From a virus, in the IMG/VR virus record IMGVR_UViG_3300042319_000150, positions 1 through 23,449 of that record: a DNA stretch of 23,449 bases. One strand, 5' to 3'. The position numbers and the translations under genes were made by a program. Numbering within the stretch: position 1 is the stretch's first letter; the number at the start of each line of letters is the position of its first letter. Below are positions 2,828 to 8,526 of the stretch, in pieces. The notes under the pieces were generated by a model. That model did no database searches and was not told the DNA's origin. It was given only the letters and a program-made list of their open reading frames with translations.

Positions 2828-5245
2828 ATGGCACTAGACACCGAATCATTCAACAAACAACTATATGACCTTCTTAAAGTAAGAGGTTATAAGCCTGTAC
2901 CAAAAGACTCTAGAAATCAAAACGTAGAAGCATCACAACTTGCTGACGTTATGGAATTTGTATTCATGAAAGAAGGAGAAGAGTACGGTAAGGCATGGGC
3001 AAGCATCGATGATGCAAACAACGTAATTATCTATTATGATGATGAACAAGCAGATAGTCCAGAAGGAAAAACCCCCGGGGTCGAATATGATGATTCATGG
3101 TCAGGGTTTTTAAAACACGTTAAGAATTGGGCACAACGTAAGCAACTTAGTTTTGAGTTAGCCAACAAAGCCCGTCTTAGCGATGACATGCGACAAAGGG
3201 AATATGTAAAAATGAAAGAAAAAATCTCAGAAGGCTATCATGCTATGGGCAAGAAAGCCAGTTATAATGACAACGTTCCTAGCGTTAAAATTATTCTTCA
3301 ACATAATCGTCAGATTGAAGAAGGTGAACAACGTTATCGCAATGTAGCCAAAATCTTTTTGGAGAACACAGAAGGTGAAAGAATTCTTGCCCCCACTACC
3401 CGTCCGGGTATCGCACAAATTTACGCCAGACATTTGGCCGAAGGCGGAGTTCCAAATGACGAACGTTGGAACCATATCAAGGGTCTTTGTGAAGAGTATT
3501 CCAAAATGGCAGGGTTCGTTCGTGCCACACGAAATAATCAATTCAACGAATCAGCACAAGCACTAGTCAACGAAGGTATTAATCACTATCAATCATTGCG
3601 TGAATCATTAAGCAAGATGCGTGGTCATCGTGGCTACAATGCATACTTTGAATCATGGACTCCACCTTTGATGGAAGAAGAAAATGATATGTCAATCAAT
3701 GAATTGTTTGTGCAAGAAACTGTTGATCCTCGTATTGAAAGTGTAATGCCTATTCTTTCACGTTTAAGTAAGAAGTCAGGCATTAAGCCAATGACAGAAG
3801 TATCAGAACTTGCTGAATGGGCCCAAAGTATCGTAGAAGGTGAAAATAAAAGTATTGTAATCAATGGCAAAGAAGTTGATTACGCTAGTCTTGAAATCGA
3901 TGGTGTAGATTCTAGTGACTACCCAGATTTTTCTGATGCTTATTTTAGTTCAGGATATTTCACAGATGGCACACAAATGAGTGATGAAGATTTAGATCAA
4001 TTGGCGGACAAATATGGTGAACTTGTCAATCGCAAAGCATACGATAGTTTACACGAAGGCGGCGACGGCGGTGAAGCATCTGAAGAAGAAGATGTATATA
4101 CCGATGCAGATGCCGGCGAAGAAATGGATGCATCAGCCGAAGAAGAAATGCTTGAAGCACCCGGCGCAGAAACATTAGGTCATAACCAATCAACTGAAAA
4201 AAGCAATCTAGCGGCATTTGATCTTGGCGAAGCACTTGATCCAATTGCAGACAAGATTGCTGAATTAGAAAAACAATTGAGAACTGCTACTCCGCAAGAA
4301 GCACAGAAGATTAAAGAAATTCTTACTTTGTTAAAAGCAAAAGCAAACAAAGGATCATCTAACCCATCTGATGGTGGCACAGCCGTAGATAGAGCAGAAA
4401 AACGAGCCAAAGATCGTTTTTCTAAGAAGTCATCAGTAACAGGTGATAACATCGGTGACACTATTAAAGGTGGAGCGGCACTAATGGGCTTTTTGGGTTT
4501 AGGTGAAGGTCGTATGGCAGAAACAGATAGTATCATTCAGGATATTATCAATGGTGATTTAGATGCATATAACGTTATGGCAAATCCTAAAACGCCAGAA
4601 GAAGAATATGTAGCAAACATGATGCAAGAAATGTATGATGATGTTTCAATTGAATATAGTCTACATCCAGACGATGACTTTGAAAAAATCTTAGACATTG
4701 TAGTTGACCAATTAGCAAAAGACCACAAGCACGATGACAATCAACTATCAATGCTTGAAGGTGATGTTGAAGAAGGTATGTTACATCAAGGCGCCGGTTG
4801 GTTAGCCAAGAAATTAGCATCTTTTGCTGGATACAAGGCACTTAAGCCAGGTACATATATTGTTCCTCCTTTAGCACAAGCAGGCGGAAAACCTATCTTA
4901 TTCTCTATTCGTAGTGAGTCAGATTACCCCGTCTTCAATCTACCTCCTGATGAAAAATATAATCCAGAACGAATCTATTCTCATATCAAGGCACATATTC
5001 AATCGGGTAACTATGAAACTGCACCTTCTGCAATGCAACGTGATTATTCACAGAAGACAATGCCAAAAGAAGAAGTAGAAGAAGATTTAGACGCTAATCA
5101 AAAACGTGTAGGTCAATTAGGTCCAACCGAAAAGGTAGGACCTAAAGGTGCAGTAGGTAAATTAGTTGGTGCAAGCGAAAGCATTGAGGTCAACGAAGGC
5201 CAAGATGATTTAGATGCAATCAAACGATTACTAAACAGATACTAA
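2828..5245 (+). CDS. Large acidic virion or prohead-internal protein of unknown function
   Basis: I do not recognise a characterised family in this 805-residue protein. It is acidic and mostly hydrophilic, with no signal peptide or membrane segments. Residues about 410-455 are very rich in Glu/Asp, and 470-500 are likely coiled coil (IADKIAELEKQLR region) followed by a Lys-rich stretch. Sequences of the form (I/L)-x-E-G, which fit T4 gp21 prohead-protease sites, recur at about 133-136, 408-411 and 558-561, with further examples such as HLAEGG, IVEGE and IEEGE. The C-terminal 60 residues (LGPTEKVGPKGAVGKLVG region) look like an ending I associate with structural proteins of aquatic T4-like phages. 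Its place directly after terminase and its own late promoter support a structural, proteolytically processed role (inference). It is followed by a hairpin terminator. Confidence 0.75.
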   Translation: MALDTESFNKQLYDLLKVRGYKPVPKDSRNQNVEASQLADVMEFVFMKEGEEYGKAWASIDDANNVIIYYDDEQADSPEGKTPGVEYDDSWSGFLKHVKNWAQRKQLSFELANKARLSDDMRQREYVKMKEKISEGYHAMGKKASYNDNVPSVKIILQHNRQIEEGEQRYRNVAKIFLENTEGERILAPTTRPGIAQIYARHLAEGGVPNDERWNHIKGLCEEYSKMAGFVRATRNNQFNESAQALVNEGINHYQSLRESLSKMRGHRGYNAYFESWTPPLMEEENDMSINELFVQETVDPRIESVMPILSRLSKKSGIKPMTEVSELAEWAQSIVEGENKSIVINGKEVDYASLEIDGVDSSDYPDFSDAYFSSGYFTDGTQMSDEDLDQLADKYGELVNRKAYDSLHEGGDGGEASEEEDVYTDADAGEEMDASAEEEMLEAPGAETLGHNQSTEKSNLAAFDLGEALDPIADKIAELEKQLRTATPQEAQKIKEILTLLKAKANKGSSNPSDGGTAVDRAEKRAKDRFSKKSSVTGDNIGDTIKGGAALMGFLGLGEGRMAETDSIIQDIINGDLDAYNVMANPKTPEEEYVANMMQEMYDDVSIEYSLHPDDDFEKILDIVVDQLAKDHKHDDNQLSMLEGDVEEGMLHQGAGWLAKKLASFAGYKALKPGTYIVPPLAQAGGKPILFSIRSESDYPVFNLPPDEKYNPERIYSHIKAHIQSGNYETAPSAMQRDYSQKTMPKEEVEEDLDANQKRVGQLGPTEKVGPKGAVGKLVGASESIEVNEGQDDLDAIKRLLNRY

Positions 5246-5257
5246 AACGGGTAAATA

Positions 5258-5281
5258 AAACCGCACTTAATTGTGCGGTTT
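5258..5281 (+). terminator. Hairpin terminator between the 805-residue protein gene and gene 32
   Basis: AAACCGCAC (5258-5266) pairs with GTGCGGTTT (5273-5281) around the loop TTAATT. Only three T residues follow within the stem, so termination may be partial. It separates late structural transcription from the gene 32 promoter. Confidence 0.7.
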
Positions 5282-5292
5282 CCCATATCTGG

Positions 5293-5300
5293 CATAAATA
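5293..5300 (+). promoter_or_regulatory. Possible late promoter upstream of gene 32
   Basis: CATAAATA at 5293-5300 resembles the late box and sits just before the sigma70-type promoter. It would start transcripts near 5306, keeping the leader pseudoknot. Gene 32 might therefore be expressed both early/middle and late, as in T4. Confidence 0.35.
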
Positions 5301-5303
5301 TAC

Positions 5304-5332
5304 TTGACATTAGAAGAAAGTATGTGTATACT
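5304..5332 (+). promoter_or_regulatory. Sigma70-type promoter of gene 32
   Basis: TTGACA at 5304-5309 is a perfect -35; a 17-bp spacer leads to TATACT at 5327-5332, preceded by TGTG. Predicted +1 is near 5339, giving a leader of about 73 nt for gene 32. Confidence 0.82.
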
Positions 5333-5346
5333 AGAATCTAGTGTTA

Positions 5347-5388
5347 GTTATCTCATGGTGAGATAGCGACAACTAAAATGACACCATG
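5347..5388 (+). promoter_or_regulatory. Candidate H-type RNA pseudoknot in the gene 32 leader
   Basis: GTTATCT (5347-5353) pairs with AGATAGC (5361-5367), with one G-U pair. The enclosed loop CATGGTG (5354-5360) is exactly complementary, 7 of 7, to CACCATG (5382-5388). This gives a classic H-type pseudoknot ending 23 nt before the ATG. T4 gene 32 mRNA has a leader pseudoknot that nucleates autoregulatory gp32 binding, so the same role is plausible here. An alternative fold is two hairpins with complementary UGG and CCA triloops, which could kiss. Confidence 0.65.
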
Positions 5389-5411
5389 TCAATGAAATAA
5401 GGAAATATATT

Positions 5412-6401
5412 ATGGCTTCACTAGCAGAAATTCGTGCCCGTATCGCGGCACAAGAAAACAAGACCCAGAACAAGGGTTCTTCAACTCAATCTGACAACGC
5501 AATTTACCCACACTGGAATATCGATGAAGGCGCTCAGGCGACTATTCGTTTGCTTCCAGATGCAGATACAAACAACACGTTCTTTTGGGTAGAGCGTCAG
5601 ATTATCAAACTTCCATTCAACGGCGTTAAGGGCGATCCTAACATCAAGCAGACAGTGGTACAAGTACCCTGTGTTGAGATGTATGGTGACGCATGTCCTG
5701 TTCTCGCAGAAGTTCGTCCTTGGTACAAGGATGATACTCTTAAGGAACTTGCTAACAAGTATTGGAAGAAGCGTTCTTACATCTTCCAGGGGTTTGTTCG
5801 CACTAACCCACTTGGCGATGACAAGACTCCGGCAAATCCTATTCGCCGATTCATTATCTCTCCTCAAATCTTCACTATCATCAAGTCTTCATTGATGGAT
5901 CCTGAAATGGAAGAATTGCCAACAGACTTCTTGCGTGGTCTTGACTTCAATATTAAGAAGACAAGCAAGGGTGGATATGCTGACTACTCAACTAGTAACT
6001 GGGCCCGTAAGGAATCAGCACTAACTGAAGTTGAGCAGGCTGCTATTGAAGCACATGGTCTACACAATTTGGCAGACTTCTTACCTAAGAAGCCTAACGA
6101 AGCAGAACTACGTGTCATTAAAGAAATGTTTGAAGCATCAGTAGATGGTCAACCCTTCGACAATGAACGTTGGGGTGCATACTATCGCCCATATGGGGTA
6201 GAAGCACCTTCAGGTACTACAGCGGCTAAACCATCAGCGTCTACTGAAACTAGCGCACCCGCTAAGTCACCAGTCGCAGGCACAGAAGATGATACTCCTC
6301 CTTTTGAAACTGCTGATCCAGTAGTTGTCCCACAGACAACTTCAAGCGATAAGGCCCAAGATATTCTTGCAATGATTCGTGCAAGACAAAATAAGGCCTA
6401 A
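5412..6401 (+). CDS. 32: Single-stranded DNA-binding protein (gp32-like)
   Basis: Coats ssDNA during replication, recombination and repair and organises UvsX/UvsY loading. The 329-residue protein has a short N-terminal helix with basic residues (IRARIAAQENK, about 6-16), which corresponds to the cooperativity region. The OB-fold core runs to about residue 255, with VPCVEMYGDACPV at 85-97 and aromatic/basic stretches such as YWKKRSYIFQGFV. A Thr/Ser/Pro/Ala-rich linker leads to an acidic EDDTPPF at 292-298 and a terminal helix. Of the zinc ligands of T4 gp32 (one His, three Cys), only Cys87 and Cys95 have clear counterparts; Leu98 replaces the last Cys and I find no matching His. AAGGAA at 5399-5404, eight bases upstream, sets the ATG. 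It has its own promoter and a structured leader. Confidence 0.93.
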   Translation: MASLAEIRARIAAQENKTQNKGSSTQSDNAIYPHWNIDEGAQATIRLLPDADTNNTFFWVERQIIKLPFNGVKGDPNIKQTVVQVPCVEMYGDACPVLAEVRPWYKDDTLKELANKYWKKRSYIFQGFVRTNPLGDDKTPANPIRRFIISPQIFTIIKSSLMDPEMEELPTDFLRGLDFNIKKTSKGGYADYSTSNWARKESALTEVEQAAIEAHGLHNLADFLPKKPNEAELRVIKEMFEASVDGQPFDNERWGAYYRPYGVEAPSGTTAAKPSASTETSAPAKSPVAGTEDDTPPFETADPVVVPQTTSSDKAQDILAMIRARQNKA

Positions 6402-6694: not shown

Positions 6695-7789
6695 TTGGCT
6701 AAGGCATTTGACGTAAGTAAATTCCGTAAGGATATCACTAAGGCTATTGATGGTCTTAGTATTGGATTTAATGACCCTACTGATTGGATCAGTACAGGTA
6801 ATTACGCACTGAACTATCTAATCAGTGGTGATTTTAACAAAGGCGTACCACTAGGTAAGGTAACTGTATTCGCAGGTGAATCAGGCTCTGGCAAGAGTTT
6901 CATCTGTTCGGGTAACCTAGTACGTCACGCACAAGAGCAAGGCATTTTCGTTGTACTAATCGACAGTGAAAATGCACTAGACGAAGCATGGTTACATGCT
7001 CTCGGTGTATCTACTGAAGAAGATAAGTTGTTAAAACTTAACATGGCAATGATTGATGATGTTGCTAAGACTATCAGTGAGTTTATGAAGAGTTATAAGA
7101 CAATGCCTGAAACTGACAAGCCTAAGGTATTGTTTGTTATTGACTCATTGGGTATGTTGTTGACTCCCACAGACGTTAATCAGTTCCAAGCAGGTGACAT
7201 GAAGGGCGACATGGGTCGTAAGCCTAAAGCACTAACATCACTTGTTCGTAACTGTGTTAACATGTTTGGTTCACATAATGTTGGACTAGTTGCAACCAAT
7301 CACACATATGCATCACAAGATATGTTTGACCCCGATGATAAGATTTCAGGTGGTCAAGGTTTCGTATATGCATCAAGTATTGTTGTTGCAATGAAAAAGT
7401 TGAAACTAAAGGAAGATGAATCCGGTAACAAGGTAACTGATGTTCGTGGTATTCGTTCCGCTTGTAAGATTATGAAGACTCGTTATGCGAAGCCTTTTGA
7501 ATCAGTACAAGTTAAGATTCCTTATGAAACAGGTATGAGTCCTTATTCAGGTCTATTAGATATGATTGAAAAGGCTGAACTTGTTAAGAAAGAAGGTAAC
7601 TCATTAGTCTATACAACACTTGATGGAGAAATCATTAAGAAGTTTCGTAAGGGTTGGGAAGCAAATGATGACGGTTGTTTAGACAAGGTAATGTCTGAAT
7701 ATGGACTGCGTGATTCAATGAAAGCAAGTATCAATATAACAGAAGATAATGAAGAAACTATTGATATAGAGGAGTTACCAGAAACATGA
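6695..7789 (+). CDS. uvsX: RecA-like recombinase (UvsX)
   Basis: Strand-exchange ATPase forming filaments on ssDNA for recombination-dependent replication and repair. Walker A GESGSGKS is at residues 61-68. VLIDSENALDEAWL follows in the usual place of the catalytic Glu region, then Walker B-like VLFVIDSLGM. The L2-like segment contains SGGQGFVYASSIVVAM. The length of 364 residues and the acidic C-terminus fit T4 UvsX (about 390). The start is TTG at 6695, chosen because GAGGAG at 6683-6688 lies six bases upstream and the conserved N-terminus begins there. The stop overlaps the next gene (ATGA), so the two are coupled. Confidence 0.95.
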   Translation: MAKAFDVSKFRKDITKAIDGLSIGFNDPTDWISTGNYALNYLISGDFNKGVPLGKVTVFAGESGSGKSFICSGNLVRHAQEQGIFVVLIDSENALDEAWLHALGVSTEEDKLLKLNMAMIDDVAKTISEFMKSYKTMPETDKPKVLFVIDSLGMLLTPTDVNQFQAGDMKGDMGRKPKALTSLVRNCVNMFGSHNVGLVATNHTYASQDMFDPDDKISGGQGFVYASSIVVAMKKLKLKEDESGNKVTDVRGIRSACKIMKTRYAKPFESVQVKIPYETGMSPYSGLLDMIEKAELVKKEGNSLVYTTLDGEIIKKFRKGWEANDDGCLDKVMSEYGLRDSMKASINITEDNEETIDIEELPET

Positions 7790-8067: not shown

Positions 8068-8526
8068 ATGAACTGGTATACGAGGATCACTGCTGATCTA
8101 TCAGTAATCCCAGACTTTATTTCTCATTATGAAAATGAGATAATTTCTGCAAAAGCCGATGTAAGGGTTTATGGCAATGTTGAAAAGAACATTGCCGCCC
8201 TTCCCGGCATCACTGAATACCGCTTCAATCAATTACAAGAGATTGAAGCGGTACTCAACTATCTAAACATTCAACTTAGAAAAATTCGTAGAAAGCATTT
8301 TCAGAAATACCTTGAAGCATATAATCGTGCGTTAACATCACGTGATGCAGAAAAGTACACTGATGGTGAGCAGGAAGTTATTGACTACGAAGTGTTAATC
8401 AATGAAGTTGCACTATTGCGTAATAAGTTTTTGGGTGTAATGAAGGGCATTGATGCAAAGCAATGGCAACTAGGTCACATTGTTCGTCTACGCACTGCTG
8501 GTATGGAAGATATCACAATTGGGTAA
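8068..8526 (+). CDS. uvsY: Recombination mediator (UvsY-like)
   Basis: 152-residue helical protein with the pattern of the UvsY family in aquatic T4-like phages. It has an N-terminal segment, a central EYRFNQLQEIEAVLNYL helix, RKIRRKHFQKYLEAYNRAL, an acidic DAEKYTDGEQEV loop, and the C-terminal LLRNKFLGVMKGIDAKQW...VRLRTAGMED. UvsY loads UvsX on gp32-covered ssDNA; T4 UvsY is 137 residues. Its place two genes after uvsX and in the same operon agrees. The ATG at 8068 abuts the previous stop; GGA at 8060-8062 is the only ribosome-site hint. Confidence 0.8.
   Translation: MNWYTRITADLSVIPDFISHYENEIISAKADVRVYGNVEKNIAALPGITEYRFNQLQEIEAVLNYLNIQLRKIRRKHFQKYLEAYNRALTSRDAEKYTDGEQEVIDYEVLINEVALLRNKFLGVMKGIDAKQWQLGHIVRLRTAGMEDITIG

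Follow-up and report, generated by a model that had tools for sequence, protein, structure and literature searches.

The window, that is the whole 23,449-nucleotide stretch of viral DNA analysed here, encodes on its + strand a predicted protein of 329 aa (5412-6401) which, judged by its profile matches, is a gene 32 (gp32)-type single-stranded DNA-binding protein (SSB). The ORF matches phrog_1192 (E=2.3e-62) and PF08804 (28.8 bits; cutoff 26.8), and also T4 gp32 in a profile comparison (E=1e-4, but with a probability of just 57%). A UvsX-like recombinase gene (6695-7789) lies close by. The SSB gene has its own transcription-unit signals, all on the + strand. Immediately 3' of the upstream gene (2828-5245) is a terminator-like hairpin, AAACCGCAC-TTAATT-GTGCGGTTT (5258-5281), which has no proper T-run and is absent from the terminator-scan output; relatives have similar hairpins at this position, for example AAACCTCAC..GTGAGGTTT. 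Then come CATAAATA (5293-5300), a putative promoter box resembling those of T4 late genes, and a sigma70-type promoter, TTGACA-17-TATACT (5304-5332; 11 of 12 consensus matches), from which transcription is predicted to start at about 5339-5340, giving a leader of approximately 72 nt. The Shine-Dalgarno (SD) sequence AAGGAA is located at 5399-5404 and the ATG at 5412. Elsewhere in the window, three sigma70-type promoters (9970, 10528 and 10787, + strand) have an odd common spacer, TTAATCGTTTTGGGC or close variants of it (TTGACA-TTAATCGTTTTGGGC-ATATAAT), and apparently represent an early-promoter class of this phage; a strong inverted repeat, GAAUACCGCUUCAAUC..GAUUGAAGCGGUACUC (8207-8264), lies within ORF 8068-8526 and has a sub-threshold Rfam match.

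Two hairpins can be drawn in the + strand of the SSB leader. In hairpin A (GUUAUCUCA-UGG-UGAGAUAGC, 5347-5367), GTTATCT (5347-5353) pairs with AGATAGC (5361-5367) in 7 bp including one U.G, and the stem extends to 9 bp closed by a TGG triloop. An A/U-rich linker, GACAACUAAAAU (5368-5379), joins it to hairpin B (GACA-CCA-UGUC, 5380-5390), which in the window has an extra U-A pair (TGACA-CCA-TGTCA, 5379-5391). Hairpin A is positioned at -65 to -45 relative to the AUG, and the 3' side of B ends about 21 nt before it. Taken alone, the leader of the window is unimpressive, as its RNA fold has a z-score of only -1.6 with 13 of 200 shuffles equally good, a modest signal that is also weak in other single leaders; it is the comparative data that decide. 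An outer stem spotted by eye in the window, TTAGTT/AACTAA, is missing from most relatives.

For the comparison, 238 distinct gp32 leaders were collected from IMG/VR viral contigs by a protein-guided scan and from a search of named-phage records. Leaders consisting of hairpin A, an A/U-rich linker, hairpin B and an SD were designated class 1, and account for 87 of the 134 leaders in the first sets. The arrangement of this class is tightly spaced: the -10 box is 13 nt from hairpin A in 60 leaders, which places A at a fixed distance of roughly 6-8 nt from the predicted mRNA 5' end, and A is 62-68 nt from the AUG in most. Hairpin B comes to within 12-14 nt of the AUG in some relatives, where it touches the SD. 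The TAAATA box is found in 86/87 class-1 leaders, and together with a TTGACA..TATACT-type promoter in 81/87. Linkers are 11-22 nt long and 81% A+T, with TAAA in 73/87, and the SD is AAGGAA in 68 leaders and AAGGAG in 14 of the 87; this bears out the point of the preliminary description that an A/U-rich stretch and then the SD come after the structure.

Comparison of 47 distinct leaders showed that the eight pairs of A and the four of B are formed in 99.0% of 524 cells, as opposed to 83.4% in shuffles. Double changes were observed at 9 of the 12 pairs (81 cells vs 20.4 in shuffles), the covariation score was 0.478 vs 0.183 when shuffled, and sliding the partners by 1-3 columns reduced pairing to 30-55%. 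RNAalifold, unaided, recovered the same 10 pairs of A and B. For hairpin A alone, all cells are paired and six of the eight pairs show double changes. Its basal pairs are formed in 264/264 cells (44 distinct sequences), a figure that is partly selected as the search demanded at least 4/5 basal pairs; in an independent check on 54 loci chosen by linker and hairpin B only, with the 5' arm of stem A outside the pattern, the stem was paired 6/6 in 53. Hairpin B is paired in 97.3% of cells with double changes in 3 of 4 pairs, its stems including GAGA/UCUC, AAGA/UCUU, GACA/UGUC and GACU/AGUC around a loop of CCA (CAA once). When mapped on a tree of gp32 coding sequences, each of A pairs 2-6 had undergone 12-26 changes and B pair 1 ten, and tree-aware independent contrasts were significant for stem A (A3 p=6e-5, A4 p=2e-4, A5 p=0.016, A6 p=0.004) and for B pair 1 (8/8 agree, p=0.008). 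Stem A contains 48 G.U wobbles and no A.C mismatches in 264 cells, with one A.C among 54 further leaders, which indicates that the + strand RNA is the pairing molecule; hairpin B shows no wobble changes and is neutral between RNA and DNA. It is near certain that both A and B exist as RNA hairpins and are conserved in the gp32 leader.

This element is specific to the gp32 gene and is found only upstream of it. Searched with a covariance model of A and B, 11 class-1 genomes or contigs, two of them 352 and 364 kb long, yielded one strong match apiece (E <= 2e-13) and no other convincing one, and the window likewise had just one strong match. An exact pattern of the linker and B matched viral contigs 54 times; 53 of the matches have gp32 16-20 nt downstream, and the contig of the 54th is cut off inside the gp32 start.

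A contact between the two hairpins was also considered. The preliminary description had noted two folds, and of its alternative, a pair of kissing hairpins, the hairpins themselves are strongly conserved while the kissing contact is not above chance. The idea that GG of loop A pairs with CC of loop B, uniting both hairpins in one tertiary unit, draws on the presence of these dinucleotides in 43 of 47 distinct combinations, on L173, the sole leader whose B loop is CAA, likewise being without GG in A, and on class 2, where a hairpin loop UCC is accompanied by a downstream AGG in 40/43 and by CC in none, the reverse polarity. However, the contact would amount to just 2-3 bp that offer no variation for a test, CC persists in three combinations without GG, and the complementarity of the loops equals that of re-dealt loops; in neither class 1 nor class 2 does kissing or loop-downstream pairing rise above the chance level. 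Such a unit has a low probability. In class 2 the loop UCUCC could in addition pair with GGAGA of the SD (AGGAGA in 42/43), a pairing that is possible but invariant.

The other fold was an H-type pseudoknot, in which a 7-bp stem (5347-5353/5361-5367) encloses a 7-base loop that pairs with a segment 21 bases downstream. These features are present as described, CATGGTG (5354-5360) and CACCATG (5382-5388) being exact reverse complements. The complete 7-nt match is shared only with the two nearest relatives, L246 and L251, and the helix was rejected as a conserved structure: it is paired in 39.9% of cells vs 40.6% in shuffles, with no covariation over 47 distinct leaders, and loop-downstream complementarity across the family is 3.66 vs 3.63 for re-dealt loops. 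It also competes with hairpin B, which covaries, and the match in the window is explained by A and B both having CA...UG tops around the complementary triloops TGG and CCA. The comparison of related leaders proposed in the preliminary description has turned up abundant compensatory changes in A and B and none for the loop-downstream helix, and this pseudoknot is very unlikely.

The promoter itself lies within a third covarying element. This inverted repeat, P1 (5307-5344, +), has an arm pairing of 14.6 vs 8.4 +- 0.23 for re-paired arms (125 distinct regions), and the -35 TTGACA falls within one arm; where relatives have TTGACG, this accompanies CGTTAG in the opposite arm. Pairing of this type scores 15.8 at gp32 promoters vs 9.0 at 22 other TTGACA..TATACT matches, and the covarying dyad is thus particular to the gp32 promoter, being absent where similar promoter sequences occur elsewhere. 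P1 would be present in RNA only if transcription began upstream, for example at the TAAATA box.

More distant relatives have a hairpin of different sequence at the same leader position, followed by GGC-containing repeats. In the leader classes of these relatives, GGC occurs 1.8-2.8 times per 75 nt vs 0.6-1.2 when shuffled. A single copy of the class-2 repeat AGGCTCAA..TAGGCA is present in each of 4/4 records, at the gp32 leader. Because the motif itself helped to define the groups, these enrichments are descriptive. Class-1 leaders show no excess of repeated 6-mers (0.92 vs 0.77 shuffled), and the GGC-repeat idea is therefore confined to the other classes. Several individual leaders were also observed. 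Tandem short repeats 5' of the SD, in the 60 nt that precede the SSB start, were seen in L342, L338, L305, L083 and others (AUAGGCAAC, UAGGCUAAUA, AUGGCA) and in Atu_ph07 (UUAGCACAA), the repeats differing in each lineage. Six hybrid leaders (L076, L115, L124, L131, L145 and L212) combine the UUAGGCUCAAC/AAGGCUCAAC element with hairpin B, linking leader classes. The SSB leader of PA5oct (L081, about 1390-1500) has a candidate H-type pseudoknot, AGUUUUGC..GCAAAACU, with a loop CUAACCC complementary to the downstream GGGUUUAG (one bulge).

Tentatively, SSB leaders across the broad family of gp32 relatives could be viewed as a single architecture in unrelated sequences, with a 5' hairpin (in PA5oct the candidate pseudoknot), then hairpin B or tandem GGC repeats (AUAGGCAAC, AUGGCA, UUAGGCUCAAC), and then the SD. 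Autoregulation would then hold for these SSBs in general, through RNA components that keep being remade, and the promoter within a covarying inverted repeat may provide early and late transcripts with 5' ends that differ in structure.

On balance, the class-1 leader is read here as a two-part RNA operator acting in cis on the SSB gene, probably autogenous and translational, which has the layout of the T4 leader in a different RNA; we infer that gp32 represses its own synthesis. SSB in excess of the available ssDNA would load on its own mRNA at the structured element, spread along the A/U-rich segment and cover the SD, thereby halting further production in the manner of T4 gp32. Loading or phasing may fall to hairpin A, with B acting either as a second contact or as a gate at the ribosome site. 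The 3' side of B is close to the AUG, sometimes touching the SD, so that a ribosome would have to melt or avoid it. Counter to the operator reading, most class-1 leaders hold at most one U(U)AAA and have no T4-like repeat series. Leader class tracks protein phylogeny, with 5 changes for 149 leaders compared with about 54 after shuffling, a pattern that plain linkage explains as well.

The main rivals to an autogenous operator are a role of A in stabilising the mRNA and recognition by an RNA-binding protein other than SSB; a 5' stability element or another RNA-binding regulator would give the same covariation. In the former case A would be a 5'-terminal hairpin shielding the mRNA from 5'-end-dependent decay, with no regulation of translation by the SSB. 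Its tightly fixed place next to the predicted 5' end is in agreement with this, and greater stability than that of other transcripts has been described for T4 gene 32 mRNA (PMC3014915), but protection leaves hairpin B near the SD and the conserved GG/CC loops unexplained and seems unlikely overall. Recognition by another protein, RegA-like or from the host, is suggested by the resemblance of the conserved loops AUAGG/AUGGU and CCA on freely varying stems to protein recognition sites; a general regulator would however have further targets and the element occurs at gp32 only, which makes this improbable. That the dyads, which directly follow a strong promoter, serve a transcription repressor as operators in the DNA can hardly be credited, as stem A tolerates G.U and not A.C, failing the strand symmetry expected of such a dyad (G.T as frequent as A.C), and the sequence divergence is far beyond what a single DNA-binding protein could recognise.

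The operator reading can be set against that of T4 gene 32, where a pseudoknot starting ~67 nt before the AUG is followed by U(U)AAA repeats and then the SD (PMC3014915, PMC535899). The leader described here resembles the T4/RB69/T2 operator (PMC535899, PMC3014915) in belonging to a gp32-family SSB gene, in a 5' structure ~65 nt before the AUG, with hairpin A falling in the region (about -67 to -40) expected of the structured element, in an A/U-rich stretch and in the SD AAGGAA. It differs in having two hairpins and no conserved H-type pseudoknot, in having no UUAAA/UAAA repeat series between structure and RBS despite the TAAA of its linkers, and in that its function is a proposal. The suggestion that a T4-like layout has been kept with unrelated sequence is borne out, in that the structure stands at T4-like distances and covariance model R1 found no match in the T4 leader (locus L538), indicating no sequence or structure homology to it. 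RB49 is reported to be without the gene 32 pseudoknot, and a review of T4 urges the study of diverse relatives (PMC3014915). The T4 gene 43 operator is likewise a hairpin with a conserved loop and no pseudoknot, through which a replication protein is under autogenous control (PMC3014915), and differs in its gene, its single hairpin and its loop. The STAXI motif is also structured and near genes including those for ssDNA-binding proteins, but consists of tandem pseudoknots (PMC2864571). Rfam 15 covariance models, STAXI among them, found nothing convincing in the window or in 11 related loci; among solved structures, a sequence search gave just spurious weak matches and a profile search none. 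To our knowledge, the choice of its own mRNA by a non-sequence-specific ssDNA-binding protein is known only in T4 and its close kin. Own-mRNA recognition can be tested directly with this leader family, which is large, has a well-delimited two-hairpin element and comes with a covariance model as well as natural compensatory variants.
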